The notes beneath the pieces are model-generated. The model saw nothing but the letters and a program-made list of their open reading frames with translations. It searched no databases and was not told the DNA's origin. Made by a program: the position numbers and the translations under genes. Below, one piece after another: positions 25,296 to 32,724 of a stretch of DNA of 64,000 nucleotides. The DNA is taken from the NCBI GenBank assembly GCA_003130835.1, contig QEXX01000048.1:1-64000 (forward strand), read 5' to 3'. The number at the start of each line of letters is the position of its first letter. The stretch's first letter is position 1. Source of the stretch: Anaerolineae bacterium. GTDB taxonomy: Bacteria > Chloroflexota > Anaerolineae > Anaerolineales > UBA4823.

Positions 25296-27221
25296 GTGAG
25301 AGTAGTTGGCACAGCCGGACATGTTGATCACGGAAAATCCAGCTTGGTCCAGGCTTTGAGCGGGATGAACCCCGATCGCCTGGCGGAAGAGCAAGCCCGC
25401 CAAATGACCATTGACTTGGGGTTTGCTTGGCTGACTTTACCCAATGGCGAAGAAATCGGGATTGTGGATGTGCCTGGTCATCGCGATTTTATCGAGAATA
25501 TGCTCGCTGGCGTGGGGGGGATTGATGCCGTTTTGCTGGTCATCGCTGCCGATGAAGGTGTCATGCCGCAAACCAAAGAACACTTGGCGATTATCGATTT
25601 GCTGCAGATTGAGCATGGCGTGGTTGCGTTAAATAAGGTGGATTTGGTGGATGATGAATGGGTGGATTTGGTCGAGAGCGAAGTGCGCGACTTGTTGCTG
25701 AAAACCCGGCTTGCTCAGGCGCCGCTTGTGCGGGTTTCGGCGAAAACCAAGCACGGTCTGGATGCCTTACTGTACTCGCTCCAAGATCAGCTTGCTCATC
25801 TGCCCCTGCGACTTAACCGTGGCAGGCCCCGCTTGCCGATCGATCGCGTCTTCACCCTGAGTGGCTTTGGGACGATTGTCACCGGCACACTGATTGACGG
25901 CGATTTGGAAGTCGGCAGGGAGTGTGAGATCTTACCCAAAGGAATCAAGACCCGCATTCGCAGCCTGCAAACCCATAAAAAGAAAGAAGAACTGGCTTTA
26001 GCGGGTAGCCGCACTGCTGCAAACTTAGCTGGGGTTTCTGTTGATCAGATTCGGCGGGGAGATGTTTTGGTGCAAAGCGGCTCGCTGAAGCCAACTCAGC
26101 GCGTGGATGTCCGCTTTCGGCTCTTGGCGGATGTCTCCGCTCCCTTGAAACATAACATGGAGGTCAAGTTTTTCCTTTATACTAGTGAAACGCTGGGTCG
26201 GGTGCGCGTGTTGGGTGCGGAAGCACTTGCAGCCGGGCAAGAAGGATGGCTGCAGATTGAACTTCAACAGCCGATTGTTGCCCTGCGCGGCGATCGTTTC
26301 ATTTTGCGTCGACCTTCACCGCCCGAAACGCTCGGTGGGGGGGAGATCCTGGATGCCTTCCCACAGCGGCGTTATAAACGCTTTGGCGAGGAATGGCGCG
26401 AACGGCTGCAAGCCTTGTCCAAGGGCGAACCCAAAGAGGTGATCCTAAGGCTTTTACAGCGCAACCAATGGATGACCGCCCAGCAAATCCTTCAACACAC
26501 CAACTTTTCCACCGAAGTGGTACAACAGGCGCTGCAGCAATTGTTGCAAGAAAACCAAGTGGTTGATCCCCAAGAGCGCTTTCTATCAGCGAGTAAAGAA
26601 AGCTGGGAAACCCCTTTGGTGGCGCGTTCCCAATGGGAAACCTGGCAGCACCAAGCGTTGAATCTCCTGAGTGAATACCATCGTGCTTACCCCTTACGGC
26701 GCGGCATGCCCCGTGAAGCGTTGAAGAACCGCCTCAAACTAACGATTCCTCTGTTCCAGGTCCTGGTTGATGAGCTGCTTCGGCAACAAGCCTTGCGCCA
26801 GGCACAAAACATACTGGCACGGGCGGACTTTAGCATCCAGCTCAAAGCGGCTCAGCGGGAACAAGCCGATGCGCTGTTGCGTCAAATGGCTGAGTCGCCG
26901 TATGCACCGCCCAGTGTCAAAGACTGTAAGCAAAAACTCGGTGAAGAGCTTTATCAAGCTATGTTAGAATTGGGCGAGTTAATTCAAGTCTCCGATGAGG
27001 TTGTTTTTCGCAGGCAAGATTACCTCACAGCCAAAGAAGCGGTACAGAGGTTAATTAACCAGCATGGGCAGGTCAGCGCGGCGCAGGTGCGCGATCACCT
27101 GCAGACCAGCCGCAAATACGCGCTGGCTTTACTGGAATACCTTGATCAGGTCGGATTCACCGAACGGCGGGGTGATGTGCGTATCTTGAAAGCTGATGTG
27201 CTGAACGGGAAGGAGAAGTGA
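25296..27221 (+). CDS. selB: Selenocysteine-specific translation elongation factor
   Basis: GTG start; VVGTAGHVDHGKSSLVQALSG, RQMTIDLGFAWL, DVPGHRDFIENMLAG, NKVDLV and C-terminal winged-helix region. Confidence 0.93.
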   Translation: MRVVGTAGHVDHGKSSLVQALSGMNPDRLAEEQARQMTIDLGFAWLTLPNGEEIGIVDVPGHRDFIENMLAGVGGIDAVLLVIAADEGVMPQTKEHLAIIDLLQIEHGVVALNKVDLVDDEWVDLVESEVRDLLLKTRLAQAPLVRVSAKTKHGLDALLYSLQDQLAHLPLRLNRGRPRLPIDRVFTLSGFGTIVTGTLIDGDLEVGRECEILPKGIKTRIRSLQTHKKKEELALAGSRTAANLAGVSVDQIRRGDVLVQSGSLKPTQRVDVRFRLLADVSAPLKHNMEVKFFLYTSETLGRVRVLGAEALAAGQEGWLQIELQQPIVALRGDRFILRRPSPPETLGGGEILDAFPQRRYKRFGEEWRERLQALSKGEPKEVILRLLQRNQWMTAQQILQHTNFSTEVVQQALQQLLQENQVVDPQERFLSASKESWETPLVARSQWETWQHQALNLLSEYHRAYPLRRGMPREALKNRLKLTIPLFQVLVDELLRQQALRQAQNILARADFSIQLKAAQREQADALLRQMAESPYAPPSVKDCKQKLGEELYQAMLELGELIQVSDEVVFRRQDYLTAKEAVQRLINQHGQVSAAQVRDHLQTSRKYALALLEYLDQVGFTERRGDVRILKADVLNGKEK

Positions 27222-30187
27222 GCATGAGCGAGAAAGGTGATTCTGAGAGCCTGCATCCCCCTATGCGGTTTTTCCACCTTGCCTTGGCGCTGGCGTGCGC
27301 TTTTGGCATGCTGACGGCCGTGGTGGGAATGGTGCGCGCAACTGCGTTTGCGCAAGAAGCACAGGGGAGCAATGAGCTGAACGGCTCTCTCAACCTACCT
27401 CAAAACGGTGGCGTGGATTTGTCGATCACGAAAACACACGACACTCGTTTTTTTGTGGGAGAAATTGGAATATATACGATTTTCGTCAAGAATGTGGGGG
27501 GTTCGATTTCAACCCCCTTTACCGTCACCATTACCGATACCTTACCAACACCACTGGAGTATCATTCCTTCAAGGGAAATAACTGGAATTGCACAAACGA
27601 TAGTCGAAAAGTCAGGTGTCATTTTGTGCTTACTGACACCCTCAATACAAATATCTCTTTACCTCTTCTAAAAATCGCTGTAAAGCTCAAACCGGCGACT
27701 AGTCAGACGGTAAAGAATGTTGTTGAAATCAATGATACTGAAGGTCTAGATAACATATTCACTGATACAACGGATATCAGTGCCGATTTGTCGATTACGA
27801 AAAGTGTGTTACCAACCGTTATCACTCCGACCCGAGTGCTGACCTTTACCCTTCAAGTAAAAAACAATGGACCAAACGATACGACGAATGTCAAAGTTAC
27901 CGATACTCTGCCCAGTGTATTGACTTTCAAGGGCGCCAAACCGAGCGGTCAATATAACCCTACAAATGGGTCATGGTTAATTGGAAATCTGGCAAAAGAC
28001 GAGACGAAAACTTTAGTGATCACTGCCACAGTGAAAGATGGCACTTGCGGACAAGCATACACAAATGTCACTCAGGGATTGACCTCGGATCTGCTTGATC
28101 CAGTACCCAATGATAATCTTGCCACAGCGTCTTTTACAGTCGCCAATACCTGTATTACCGGAATAGTCGTCCGCTCTGACAACAACAACCCCATTCAATC
28201 CGCCAAGGTGCAAATTAAGGATAGTAATAACCATGTTTACACATACACTACTGGATCGGATGGTATTTTTACCTTTACGAATTTGTCAGCATATCCTTTG
28301 GTTCCTGGAAATGCTATCTTTTCGGCATCTGCAGTAGGCTTTCGATCGAAAACTACGCCTTCCATCTTTCTTCAACCGAACATAAAAAACGGACCGGTTG
28401 AAATCAAACTTGATCCAATCGCTCAGCTTGATCTACGAAAATCCGATGGCACCCTGTATATTGTTCCTGGTGAGACGATTACCTACACAATCCCAATCAC
28501 GAATTTGGGGGTGCTGAATGCCAGCAATTTTGTCATTAGTGATGTGCTCGATAGTCAGTTGACCTTCATTACCTATACCCTTAAGGACAAAAATGGGAAA
28601 ATCCCTCATACCCCTCCAAACCCGGTGAATCGAGTTTATACCTGGACTCTTTCTTCGGGTTACCTCCTGACACCAACTGAAAAAATGACTCTAGCGATTC
28701 GAGTCAAATTGGCTGACTCCCTCGCTAGTGGTACAAATCAAATCGATAACAAAATTTCTCTGCGCTATAACGAAGATAACTCAACGCCTGTCAACAAAAC
28801 AGCTACCGATGTTTCATACACTCCGAATTTTGAGATTCTCCAATATAGCGTTAACCCAACTGAAGCGAAGGTCAACGAAAGGCTAACCTTCAGCTTTCGC
28901 GTCTATAATCGTCAACCACAAGTCCAAGCAACCAACGTAGTTTTCACGAATACCTTTCCAAGCTATTTGAGCTTTTATTCCAGCACTCCATCTGGAAGCT
29001 ATAACAGCAGCAGCCGTGTTTTTTCGGTTGATTTGGGGACGATTGCACCTAATACCTACAAAGATGTCACCATTATTATGACGGTGAATAATGCAGCTTC
29101 TTCTACCCAAACGCTCAACAATACGGCAACAGCCCGGTTTGAACACGGTGGCAAGAAACAATGGCGGAGTTCGAATACGGTGCAATATCGCATTTTAGCT
29201 TCCTCAACCTTGCCGGGCACTGGCTTGGCGCCTCCGGCAGGTGTTTCAGTCAAGCGCTCGTTATTTTCTTCTCCCTCGCAGCGCTGGTCTAGGGGGGAGG
29301 GGATGATTGTTCAAAGCGTATTCGATTTGCCGCTCGCTTTTTGGGCAGCTCTGGGGATTGGTATTTTGTTGGTCGGTGGCGGGCTGTTGGCAATTGCGTA
29401 TAGCCTAACAAACAAGGGCTCAGAGTGGGCGGGCTGGGCGCGTCAGATGGGCTGGATCGTGAGCTTAGCTAGCTTGTTCTTTTTCGCTGCCGCATGGTGG
29501 CTGCAATCTACTATTAAACCGCCTCAAACGGTTGCAAGCGTTCCGACTGTTACTCCATCAGCGCATCCTCAGCCCACCCAAATTGCTTTTCCGCCACCGG
29601 AGTGGTGGGAAGCCCAGCCTGACAAACTGCCGGAATATCCGGTGCCGACTCCAACCTTAACTGCCGATCAAACTGCGGGTGAGGTGGACGATACCCCACC
29701 AACGCGCTTGCTCATCCCCAAATTGGGTGTGGACGCGATCGTCAAATATGTTCCCTTTGATGGCTTTAGTTGGCTGATCGCCGGCTTGCAAAACGAGATT
29801 GCTTGGATGGGCAGCACCTCCTGGCCGGGTTTGGGAGGCAACACCGCTTTAGCCGGGCACGTCACGTTGCGCAATGGCGCCGATGGTCCTTTCCGCTATT
29901 TGGAAACCTTGCGCCAAGGGGATATCGTGCAACTATACACTGAAAAGGGTGTCTATTTTTACCGCGTGCAAGAAAGCCTAGTTGTCAAAGACGATGACTT
30001 ATCGGTGGTTCAGCCCACGCAAGAAGCGATGTTAACCTTGATTACCTGCACCGGTTGGAATAGCGATCTGGGGCATTATCTTGAACGATTGGTTGTGCGG
30101 GCGACTTTGGAGAGCACTCAGCCCTTGAGCGGCAGGGAGCCAATTTGGCATCCCGTTTGGGGATTTTTGCCCTTGGGCGGCGATTAG
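27218..30187 (+). CDS. DUF11-repeat surface protein with internal LPGTG/TM segment and C-terminal sortase domain
   Basis: Repeated VDLSITKTHDT..., ADLSITKSVLPTV... DUF11-type modules; LPGTG at 29210-29224, hydrophobic helix LAFWAALGIGILLVGGGLLAIAYSL; sortase motifs ALAGHVTL, TLITCTGW (Cys codon 30047-30049), RLVVRATL. Confidence 0.88.
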   Translation: MSMSEKGDSESLHPPMRFFHLALALACAFGMLTAVVGMVRATAFAQEAQGSNELNGSLNLPQNGGVDLSITKTHDTRFFVGEIGIYTIFVKNVGGSISTPFTVTITDTLPTPLEYHSFKGNNWNCTNDSRKVRCHFVLTDTLNTNISLPLLKIAVKLKPATSQTVKNVVEINDTEGLDNIFTDTTDISADLSITKSVLPTVITPTRVLTFTLQVKNNGPNDTTNVKVTDTLPSVLTFKGAKPSGQYNPTNGSWLIGNLAKDETKTLVITATVKDGTCGQAYTNVTQGLTSDLLDPVPNDNLATASFTVANTCITGIVVRSDNNNPIQSAKVQIKDSNNHVYTYTTGSDGIFTFTNLSAYPLVPGNAIFSASAVGFRSKTTPSIFLQPNIKNGPVEIKLDPIAQLDLRKSDGTLYIVPGETITYTIPITNLGVLNASNFVISDVLDSQLTFITYTLKDKNGKIPHTPPNPVNRVYTWTLSSGYLLTPTEKMTLAIRVKLADSLASGTNQIDNKISLRYNEDNSTPVNKTATDVSYTPNFEILQYSVNPTEAKVNERLTFSFRVYNRQPQVQATNVVFTNTFPSYLSFYSSTPSGSYNSSSRVFSVDLGTIAPNTYKDVTIIMTVNNAASSTQTLNNTATARFEHGGKKQWRSSNTVQYRILASSTLPGTGLAPPAGVSVKRSLFSSPSQRWSRGEGMIVQSVFDLPLAFWAALGIGILLVGGGLLAIAYSLTNKGSEWAGWARQMGWIVSLASLFFFAAAWWLQSTIKPPQTVASVPTVTPSAHPQPTQIAFPPPEWWEAQPDKLPEYPVPTPTLTADQTAGEVDDTPPTRLLIPKLGVDAIVKYVPFDGFSWLIAGLQNEIAWMGSTSWPGLGGNTALAGHVTLRNGADGPFRYLETLRQGDIVQLYTEKGVYFYRVQESLVVKDDDLSVVQPTQEAMLTLITCTGWNSDLGHYLERLVVRATLESTQPLSGREPIWHPVWGFLPLGGD

Positions 30188-30589: not shown

Positions 30590-31312
30590 ATGAAAACCGT
30601 GCAGGAAGGACAACCCTATCGCATTCTGTATGGAGATGATGACCCGGATATGCAGACCTTGGTCAGGCTGATTCTACAGCGCGCGGGTATGCAGGTTGAC
30701 AGTGCCAGCAATGGGCAGGAGGCGTTAGACCTTTGGCGGCGTACTCATTTTGATGGAGTTGTCCTAGATGTGATGATGCCGGTGATCGATGGCTTGGAAA
30801 TTTGTCGGCGCATCCGGCGCCTTTCGCAAGTGCCCATCATTTTGCTGACAGCGCGCGGACAAGAGGACGAAGTCGTGCGTGGCTTGGAAGCTGGTGCTGA
30901 TGACTACGTTGTCAAACCCATTCGCCAGAAGGAGTTTTTAGCGCGCTTAAATGTCGCCCTCAAACGCGGCGAACGGATGCATGCCCAAGAGGAGCAGTCG
31001 ATTCATTATCAAGATTTGGTGATTCATCTCCAACGTCGCTCGGTGACTTATCGCGGCCGCCCAATTCACTTAACGCCCTTGGAATTCCAACTCTTGGTGT
31101 ATTTGGCGCGTAAACCCGGCGCGATTATCCCAAAACGCGAATTGTTTGACAGCGTTTGGGGCTATAGTAGCGGCATGGACTCCGATTATGTGGATCTCAA
31201 CATCGTGGAATCGGCTATTCGCCGCCTGCGCCGTAAACTTGGAGAGGATGCCGAGCGGCCTGATCTTATTGTAACTGTACGAGGGCTGGGGTATCAATTC
31301 GGGCATGTGTAA
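30590..31312 (+). CDS. OmpR/PhoB-family response regulator
   Basis: Receiver YGDDDPDMQTLVRLIL, VVLDVMMPVIDG, ADDYVVKPI; C-terminal wHTH LTPLEFQLLVYLARKPG...RRLRRKLGEDAERPDLIVTVRGLGYQF. Confidence 0.95.
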   Translation: MKTVQEGQPYRILYGDDDPDMQTLVRLILQRAGMQVDSASNGQEALDLWRRTHFDGVVLDVMMPVIDGLEICRRIRRLSQVPIILLTARGQEDEVVRGLEAGADDYVVKPIRQKEFLARLNVALKRGERMHAQEEQSIHYQDLVIHLQRRSVTYRGRPIHLTPLEFQLLVYLARKPGAIIPKRELFDSVWGYSSGMDSDYVDLNIVESAIRRLRRKLGEDAERPDLIVTVRGLGYQFGHV

Positions 31313-31334: not shown

Positions 31335-31356
31335 CTGTCAGCAAACTGTCAGCAAA
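31335..31356 (+). promoter_or_regulatory. 11-bp-phased CTGTCA direct repeat, Pho-box-like response-regulator site
   Basis: CTGTCAGCAAA CTGTCAGCAAA at 31335-31345 and 31346-31356. Confidence 0.6.
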
Positions 31357-31415
31357 AAATCTTGAAATCCATTCTAAAATAGACTTAGCAAAACGTTCGT
31401 CAGTCGAACGGAAGA

Positions 31416-31494
31416 TACAGAAAAAGGCAAACCCATCGTGAGGTGGGGGCGCAAAGCTGTGAATCTGCTTACGCAGATTGTCTGGCTGCCTGTG
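31416..31494 (+). ncRNA. Cyclic-di-GMP-I (GEMM) riboswitch aptamer
   Basis: GGCAAACCCATC-GTGA-GGTGGGGGCGCAAAGC: matches the GCAAACC-stem-GNRA-stem-GGGxCGCAAAGC core of the c-di-GMP-I aptamer; second hairpin AATCTGC-TTAC-GCAGATT; closing ...GGCTGCCTG. Confidence 0.82.
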
Positions 31495-31518
31495 GAAATT
31501 CCATTGGCAGCTTTTTTA
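31484..31518 (+). terminator. Riboswitch expression-platform terminator
   Basis: GGCTGCCTGTGGAAATTCCATTGGCAGC followed by TTTTTT; 5' arm overlaps aptamer 3' strand. Confidence 0.8.
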
Positions 31519-31566
31519 TTCTAAATTGTTGCCATCATTCAACAGATCGAAAAAAGGAGGTGGTTT

Positions 31567-32724
31567 ATGAAACCAGGCAAAATTTTACTAGCAATCGGCG
31601 TTGGGATGACCTTGACCATGGCACTACTATTTGTGCTACCTGGCTTGGCAGCTTCAGTCGTCCCAGAACTTGTTGATGGAAACCCTAAGTGTGTAGACTA
31701 TAATTTGGTAGGCTATAAACCAAACGAGACGCTAACCGGTACATATACTTACAATATCAATGGGATGGGGGTATTGACGATGACCATAAAGAATGGCCCA
31801 TTGGTGGATTGGAGTTCAACGTTTTGGATCGATAAGGTCATTGTCAAAGGTGGTCCCAATGCGAATGTCTATAGCTACTCCCCTGCGTCCAAGGGTGATA
31901 CAGATTTGACTACCCCTACAAATCCGAAAAATAGCACACCTTATGGATTGAGCCATGTGGAGTTTTGCTACAGCGATCAACAAGCCGTCCAGGCAGATTT
32001 TGGTGACTTACCAACAGCTTATGGCTTGACTCAATTAGGCGAAAATGGTGCAAGGCATATCCCTGTCAATAACGATGTTATACTTGGCTCTCTTCGAGAT
32101 TTAGAGTTAAATGGAAGCCCTGATGACAGCGCTTTAGGTGATGACAATGATGATTCCTCTAACGACGAAGATGGTGTAATCCGAGGACCTTCTTGGGGCG
32201 GCGGCCAGGGTGTCATTTCAGTCAGCGTATCGGGTCCTTCCTGCCTAATGGGCTGGGTGGACTGGGCCAAAGTCGATGAGAGCAATACTTTTGTTGATGT
32301 TGGCCACGACTTTAAGTTCTCGGAAAATTTCTCGATTGGCAGCATCGTATATACTGAGAAAGTGATCGATAATCTTTACCTACCTGGAGCTGGTATCTAT
32401 CAATTTACCTTTCCTCTTCCAAGTGATTTCAAGAATGCAATTGTCTATGCCCGCTTCCGTCTCTCACCGGCGACTTTCTCGATTCCGGCAGGCACGCTGG
32501 CTTCAGAGGATGAATATGTGCAATGCGACCAAACAGCAGCTGGGTTGAGTGGATTGGTTATGGGGGGTGAGGTAGAAGATTACTACTGGCGTTTTGGGCC
32601 AACAGCCGTGAATCTCAAAAGGATCAGTGCTGTGCCGCAACAATCGGCTGCTGGCTTTGGCTTGCTGGTGGTGGGCTTGGTAGCCAGCCTAACCGCCGTA
32701 TGGTTTGGACGCCGCCGACAATAG
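31567..32724 (+). CDS. Secreted GEVED-domain surface protein with C-terminal TM/RRR tail
   Basis: Signal peptide; DFGDLPTAYG...GARHIP, DEDGV and MGGEVEDYYWRFG motifs; C-terminus GFGLLVVGLVASLTAVWFGRRRQ. RBS aaaggagg. Confidence 0.85.
   Translation: MKPGKILLAIGVGMTLTMALLFVLPGLAASVVPELVDGNPKCVDYNLVGYKPNETLTGTYTYNINGMGVLTMTIKNGPLVDWSSTFWIDKVIVKGGPNANVYSYSPASKGDTDLTTPTNPKNSTPYGLSHVEFCYSDQQAVQADFGDLPTAYGLTQLGENGARHIPVNNDVILGSLRDLELNGSPDDSALGDDNDDSSNDEDGVIRGPSWGGGQGVISVSVSGPSCLMGWVDWAKVDESNTFVDVGHDFKFSENFSIGSIVYTEKVIDNLYLPGAGIYQFTFPLPSDFKNAIVYARFRLSPATFSIPAGTLASEDEYVQCDQTAAGLSGLVMGGEVEDYYWRFGPTAVNLKRISAVPQQSAAGFGLLVVGLVASLTAVWFGRRRQ

Follow-up and report, generated by a model that had tools for sequence, protein, structure and literature searches.

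Results

Organisation of the locus

The window (the whole 64,000-nt stretch of DNA that was analysed) holds, on its plus strand, a response regulator gene, a candidate promoter, a cyclic di-GMP (c-di-GMP) class I aptamer overlapped by an intrinsic terminator, and a gene for an exported surface protein, in that order (Table 1). Two genes upstream of the surface-protein gene, at 27218-30187 (+), lies the gene for a 989-aa protein that has DUF11 repeats and, at its C-terminus, a sortase domain.

Table 1. Features of the riboswitch locus, in window coordinates
Feature	Position	Strand	Description or evidence
OmpR/PhoB-type response regulator gene, directly upstream	30590..31312	+	Pfam Response_reg 5.9e-32, Trans_reg_C 2.4e-23
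PhoB-box-like tandem repeat, CTGTCAGCAAA x2	31335..31356	+	perfect, 11-bp period; orthologous promoter alignment
-10 element TAAAAT (TATAAT in three orthologues)	31375..31380	+	orthologous promoter alignment
5' hairpin CGUUCG-UCAGU-CGAACG, between predicted transcript start and aptamer	31394..31410	+	-6.2 kcal/mol, z -2.9
c-di-GMP class I aptamer	31416..31494	+	RF03167 59.9 bits, RF01051 58.1 bits; covariation over 88 family aptamers
P1, UACAG/CUGUG	31416-31420 with 31490-31494	+	pair listing
P2, GUGA loop	31432-31447	+	pair listing
P3, one U-U mismatch at 31460/31483	31455-31487	+	pair listing
Intrinsic terminator hairpin, GGCUGCC-U-GUGGA-AAU-UCCAU-U-GGCAGCU, overlapping P3/C92/P1	31484..31512	+	-18.1 kcal/mol, z -4.9
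U6 tract of terminator	31512..31517	+	sequence
Shine-Dalgarno AGGAGG, outside switch structures	31555..31560	+	sequence
385-aa exported surface protein (signal-like N-terminus, GEVED-like domain, tail VPQQSA-hydrophobic stretch-GRRRQ)	31567..32724	+	ORF, homologues, profile

A class I aptamer with a canonical pocket

A cmscan search of the whole window gave a single match, to RF03167 (c-di-GMP-I-GGC) at 31417-31494 of the plus strand (E 1.3e-11), which passes the gathering score of 59 by 0.9 bit. At the same place the RF01051 (c-di-GMP-I) model exceeds its gathering score of 35 by 23 bits, and neither model had a match in any of 14 control genomes. An earlier note on this DNA had placed a GEMM-I aptamer with an overlapping terminator at 31416-31518 and named a covariance-model run as its check; that run gave significant matches. 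The core motifs that the note had pointed to, GGCAAACC and CGCAAAGC, are present, and the P2 tetraloop GUGA is a GNRA loop. At the level of sequence, the element is confirmed as a c-di-GMP class I (GEMM-I) aptamer.

The bases G20, A47, A48, and C92 have been given as key bases of the c-di-GMP-I pocket (PMC3764141); the numbering follows that source and the mapping onto our alignment is our own. All four are matched in the window (31426 G, 31453 A, 31454 A, and 31489 C). The genome carries nine c-di-GMP-I aptamers, and G20, A47, and C92 are found in every one. The window copy is among the lowest scoring of the nine, and its P1 sequence is unlike that of most copies. Across 132 aligned Chloroflexota aptamers, A47 and C92 are invariant (132/132), and position 20 is an A in nine. 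Among 88 aptamers of the taxonomic family, 96.3% of cells are paired and 158 both-sided changes were counted (shuffled controls, 43; slid controls, no more than 28), figures that lean towards the structure because the alignment was fitted to it.

Within the family 31 of 38 genomes have such aptamers, as do 26 of 121 genomes sampled across the phylum. The genome encodes 14 GGDEF domains, so c-di-GMP is likely present and would be the ligand of the window aptamer.

Promoter and response regulator

The response regulator scores below the NCBIfam equivalog cut-offs among those shown, including that for PhoB (179 of 296 bits), and no histidine kinase was seen adjoining its gene. Coding sequence for the C-terminus of the regulator also precedes the switch in three other loci (L093, L098, and L078), so this gene-switch neighbourhood is kept. 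The tandem repeat stands 18 bp before the -10 element; all four orthologous promoters retain its pattern, CTGTCA-N5-CTGTCA, whose sole exact copy in the 3.4-Mb genome is the one here. It is probably a response-regulator site, judging by its resemblance to a PhoB box, and the adjacent regulator probably runs the promoter. Transcription would start near 31387. Orthologues have hairpins at the place of the 5' hairpin, with differing sequence. A consensus promoter/terminator scan missed both the proposed -10 element and the terminator, which contains mismatches. The leader may have a two-input design in which the regulator would act on initiation and c-di-GMP on elongation.

An overlapping terminator and its predicted switching

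None of 200 shuffles was as stable as the terminator fold. Its 5' arm shares G31484, G31485, C31486, and U31487 with P3; C31489 is C92 itself and C31490 lies in P1. The overlap of this arm (GGCTGCC) with the 3' closing strand of the aptamer, as described in the earlier note, is therefore real (shared bases 31484-31490), and it is kept, with changed sequence, in three orthologous leaders of the genus (L078, L093, and L098). Since the terminator reuses P3, C92, and P1, the bound and terminated folds are mutually exclusive and ligand binding should block termination. This competition for the same bases agrees with the ON sign that the note had assigned.

For the full leader at equilibrium, the terminator fold (-43.0 kcal/mol) is favoured over the enforced aptamer fold (-31.6 kcal/mol) by about 11 kcal/mol, so switching must rely on the energy of the ligand and on folding order. 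When folding of the growing transcript was computed, an aptamer-like fold (P1 and P3) had the lowest energy until about 31506, with the terminator taking over from 31509. The layout is that of an ON switch that would depend on the ligand arriving before the terminator is complete. RNA polymerase would start at about 31387 and make the 5' hairpin, then the aptamer. With c-di-GMP bound, P1, P3, and C92 would be held in the aptamer and the terminator 5' arm (GGCUGCC) would not be free, giving read-through into the surface-protein gene; with ligand absent, the 29-nt terminator would form and the transcript would stop.

The target and a regulon linked by a C-terminal tail

Homologues of the target are 72-73% identical over their full length and 51-59% identical over the C-terminal part, and an aptamer lies upstream of all of them. 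Put by locus, the aptamer precedes the homologue at all five Anaerolineae loci with at least 48% identity and at none of three distant ones (30-34%). The GEVED assignment of the earlier note fits the target class, with five of six members of the homologue alignment matching (PF20009, best E 1.6e-4), but is weak for the window protein by itself, which scores 12.9 bits against the Pfam gathering score of 24.4; one ON-type target of another genus passes that cut-off (26.8 bits). The target's AlphaFold model was set aside for its mean pLDDT of 40.

A profile was built from the C-terminal tail of the switch targets (PQQS-hydrophobic-RRR), and the window target matches it with E 9.4e-16. Searched against the genome, the profile finds four proteins at E < 1e-14, the next match being at E 1.09, and an aptamer precedes each of the four. 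Genus-wide, 13 of 13 tails lie behind an aptamer on the same strand; a weak tail match in another genus (E 0.009) is without an upstream aptamer. The tail-bearing targets have SpaA/SdrD_B, thioester (TED), and GEVED domains. The target gene would thus be part of a small regulon whose adhesin-like products have one C-terminal anchoring tail in common and are expected to increase with c-di-GMP; a role of the target in attachment would be in keeping with this.

No NCBIfam model matches the tail. An exosortase was considered as the anchoring enzyme and rejected, as none was found in the genome. The genome encodes three sortase-domain proteins, and anchoring of the tail by one of them is our guess.

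Two platform types across the family

Terminators overlap the aptamer in the same manner elsewhere in the genome, at C15:51671 and C157, and at C48 the overlap is over P1. In the other platform the terminator stands apart from the aptamer, usually starting 25-44 nt beyond P3. The 3' strand of P3 (GCCAGG) can pair with the 5' arm of this terminator (typically GCCUGG), so that without ligand the two would form an antiterminator and the switch is predicted to be OFF. The pairing tracks changes in both partners (CCAAG/CUUGG in L110; CCAGGUC/GACCUGG in L125). In 16 of 40 downstream-type leaders it was matched by at most 1% of shuffles (median fraction 0.0175); four leaders had no support in the same test, namely C141 and L074, whose terminators lie far downstream, and L112 and L127. 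A third group (the C13 type) lacks a terminator; here the start codon lies 38-44 nt past the aptamer, and control is probably at translation. Automatic platform calls were corrected by manual reading: C157, scored as having none, is overlap-type by sequence (CUGCC/GGCAG), and L095:470, scored 'A', has a short leader.

Across the family, overlapping terminators (predicted ON) precede adhesin-like proteins; in genus g10 the overlap-type leaders have GEVED/SpaA proteins downstream, and one genome of that genus (G009) has both platform kinds. In nine other genera the OFF-type leaders precede secreted subtilases, with Peptidase_S8 found in all nine long targets tested (E 4.7e-50 or better). Other downstream-type leaders precede other exported proteins. 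Two more downstream-type targets were tested without a Pfam match (L107 and L111), and that of L074 gave a weak sortase match. The prediction for switches of this opposite platform is that c-di-GMP lowers exported proteins of other kinds within the genome and family of the window, and secreted subtilases in related genera.

Several further leaders were noted. The target of the C141 switch (L026 1021-1769 (-) in the genome of the window; L074 2704-3420 (-)) looks, in relatives, like a small sortase-domain protein with a TLQTC motif (Sortase 7.7e-4, below cut-off); the genome of the window has it as two separate pieces of reading frame. Two aptamers in true tandem, each complete with a P1 of its own, lie at L025 4321-4600 (C15:49326-49595 in the genome of the window) and precede a 562-aa exported protein ending in YSVFIPILIKP; five related genomes have this pair as well. 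In short-leader switches (L028, L079, L084, L088, L091, and L095:470), the 5' strand of P1 carries a CUCC-like sequence with two alternative candidate partners, GGAG of P1 and the Shine-Dalgarno GGAGG, and these switches may act on translation. About 60 nt upstream of the aptamer, a GGGGGATTG element is conserved in one group of ON-type leaders (L030, L096, L092, L077, and L086).

The P2 tetraloop follows the platform

Within the genus, a GNRA loop other than GAAA is found in all 22 overlap-type or short-leader aptamers and GAAA in all 19 downstream or tandem ones. Over the family and phylum, as sorted by the automatic classifier, overlapping terminators go with 26 non-GAAA loops and one GAAA loop, and downstream terminators with two other GNRA loops and 42 GAAA loops (the 42 including one AAAA loop). 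Relatedness is not accounted for in the Fisher values (4e-12 and 5.5e-16), and the number of independent events is smaller than the counts; the link is seen in more than one taxonomic family. We tentatively suggest, at a little under even odds, that the Anaerolineae class I aptamer is split into two subfamilies by P2 tetraloop (GAAA or other GNRA) and control sign, a system of adhesins up and secreted protease down in which both arms would be class I and the sign could be read from the aptamer.

Discussion

Here, we propose that the window element is a class I c-di-GMP riboswitch acting as a transcriptional ON switch for a surface-protein gene in a small adhesin-like regulon, a reading to which we give a probability of about 0.88. 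Its parts (aptamer, pocket bases, terminator, overlap, conservation, and regulon) were established computationally, and its ON sign is predicted from the way they are arranged.

Bc2 RNA of Bacillus thuringiensis is the closest tested precedent, being a terminator-based class I ON switch upstream of cap, which encodes an LPXTG collagen adhesin (PMC4933901). The two have in common a class I aptamer, a terminator in the ligand-free state, read-through with ligand, and a surface adhesin with a C-terminal anchoring signal, all of this as predicted in the case of the window switch (PMC4933901). Unlike Bc2, the window switch is found in Chloroflexota, its target has GEVED/SpaA-type domains and a PQQS-type tail rather than LPXTG, its promoter has a response-regulator-like repeat, and it is one of nine switches in its genome with two predicted signs. 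The circuit of Clostridioides difficile pairs class II ON switches for sortase-anchored adhesins with a class I OFF switch for the protease ZmpI (PMC6366702). The predicted logic is common to both circuits, with high c-di-GMP putting adhesins up and a secreted protease down (PMC6366702), but in Anaerolineae both arms are predicted to be class I and the protease of related genera is a subtilase (S8) rather than a zinc protease. Any cleavage of the adhesins by the subtilase is putative.

No study of c-di-GMP riboswitches in Anaerolineae was found in the open literature searched. The window switch itself is of a known kind and the regulon-level pattern is the point of greater interest. If our reading is true, c-di-GMP controls a defined set of surface adhesins in Anaerolineae directly at the RNA level. 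In addition, the one-to-one link between tail and switch gives a handle on an undescribed surface-anchoring signal, and the link between tetraloop and platform gives a concrete hypothesis on how switch sign evolves.

Could the aptamer have another ligand? RF03167 is the best-scoring Rfam family for the window and for most genomic copies, which would suggest membership of the c-di-GMP-I-GGC variant class, whose pocket is altered and whose ligand may differ. This variant was reportedly defined in a 2017 PNAS paper. The window sequence and its flanks do score slightly better with that model, but the discriminating base differs: the G at model position 37 (Vc2 position 47) is an A in the window, as in every other copy of the genome and every one of the 132 aligned Chloroflexota aptamers. 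Lacking A47G, the window aptamer was rejected as a member of RF03167. With A47 kept and the pocket canonical, the GGC label is a score artefact, a by-product of similar flanks and loops, and the narrow RF03167 margin beside the wide one for RF01051 also speaks against the variant class, which we consider highly improbable. Just as improbable is a response to 3',3'-cGAMP of the kind known from the GEMM-Ib riboswitches of Geobacter, which have the same fold. The base of cGAMP-type variants, A20, does occur in nine of the 132 relatives, but the window (31426) and all nine genomic copies have G20, on which ground cGAMP sensing was rejected for this genome.

That the aptamer is real and the response OFF, the terminator forming only when the ligand holds some other element, is very unlikely, even though class I switches can be OFF (as are all seven functional ones in C. 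difficile; PMC6366702) and OFF-type platforms are present in the same genome. In the window the terminator and aptamer use the same bases and exclude one another, and the leader is without the separate terminator and antiterminator of the OFF platforms. Least probable of all is that the aptamer is a relic beside a terminator that is decayed or constitutive. The low score among the genomic copies and the strength of the terminator at equilibrium would fit it, but the pocket bases, P1, the P2 and P3 helices (with the U-U mismatch 31460/31483), and the overlap are all kept in orthologues that differ in the sequence of P1, P2, and the terminator stem yet keep the structure. An ON switch for c-di-GMP is our preferred reading.

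Some observations on A20 aptamers and arrays stand apart from the window switch. The nine A20 aptamers, from Chloroflexota rather than Geobacter, are L088, L124, L112, L127, and L119 and four of the phylum set. Triple head-to-tail c-di-GMP-I arrays were seen in L182 (G010:C52) at 1660-1966, L183 (G009:C15) at 1673-1978, L180 (G040:C1) at about 1481-1800 on the reverse strand, and L179 (G109:C9) at about 1530-1830. One outer P1 apparently encloses three P2/P3 units (TGCATCC...GGATGCA; TTGCTC...GAGCAA), the units mix A20 (cGAMP-type) and G20, and a hairpin or terminator lies 3' of the array. The genes that follow are unrelated (GatB/YqeY-like, ThiN-like, and ruvB-like, by eye), and the arrays are possibly free-standing RNAs.
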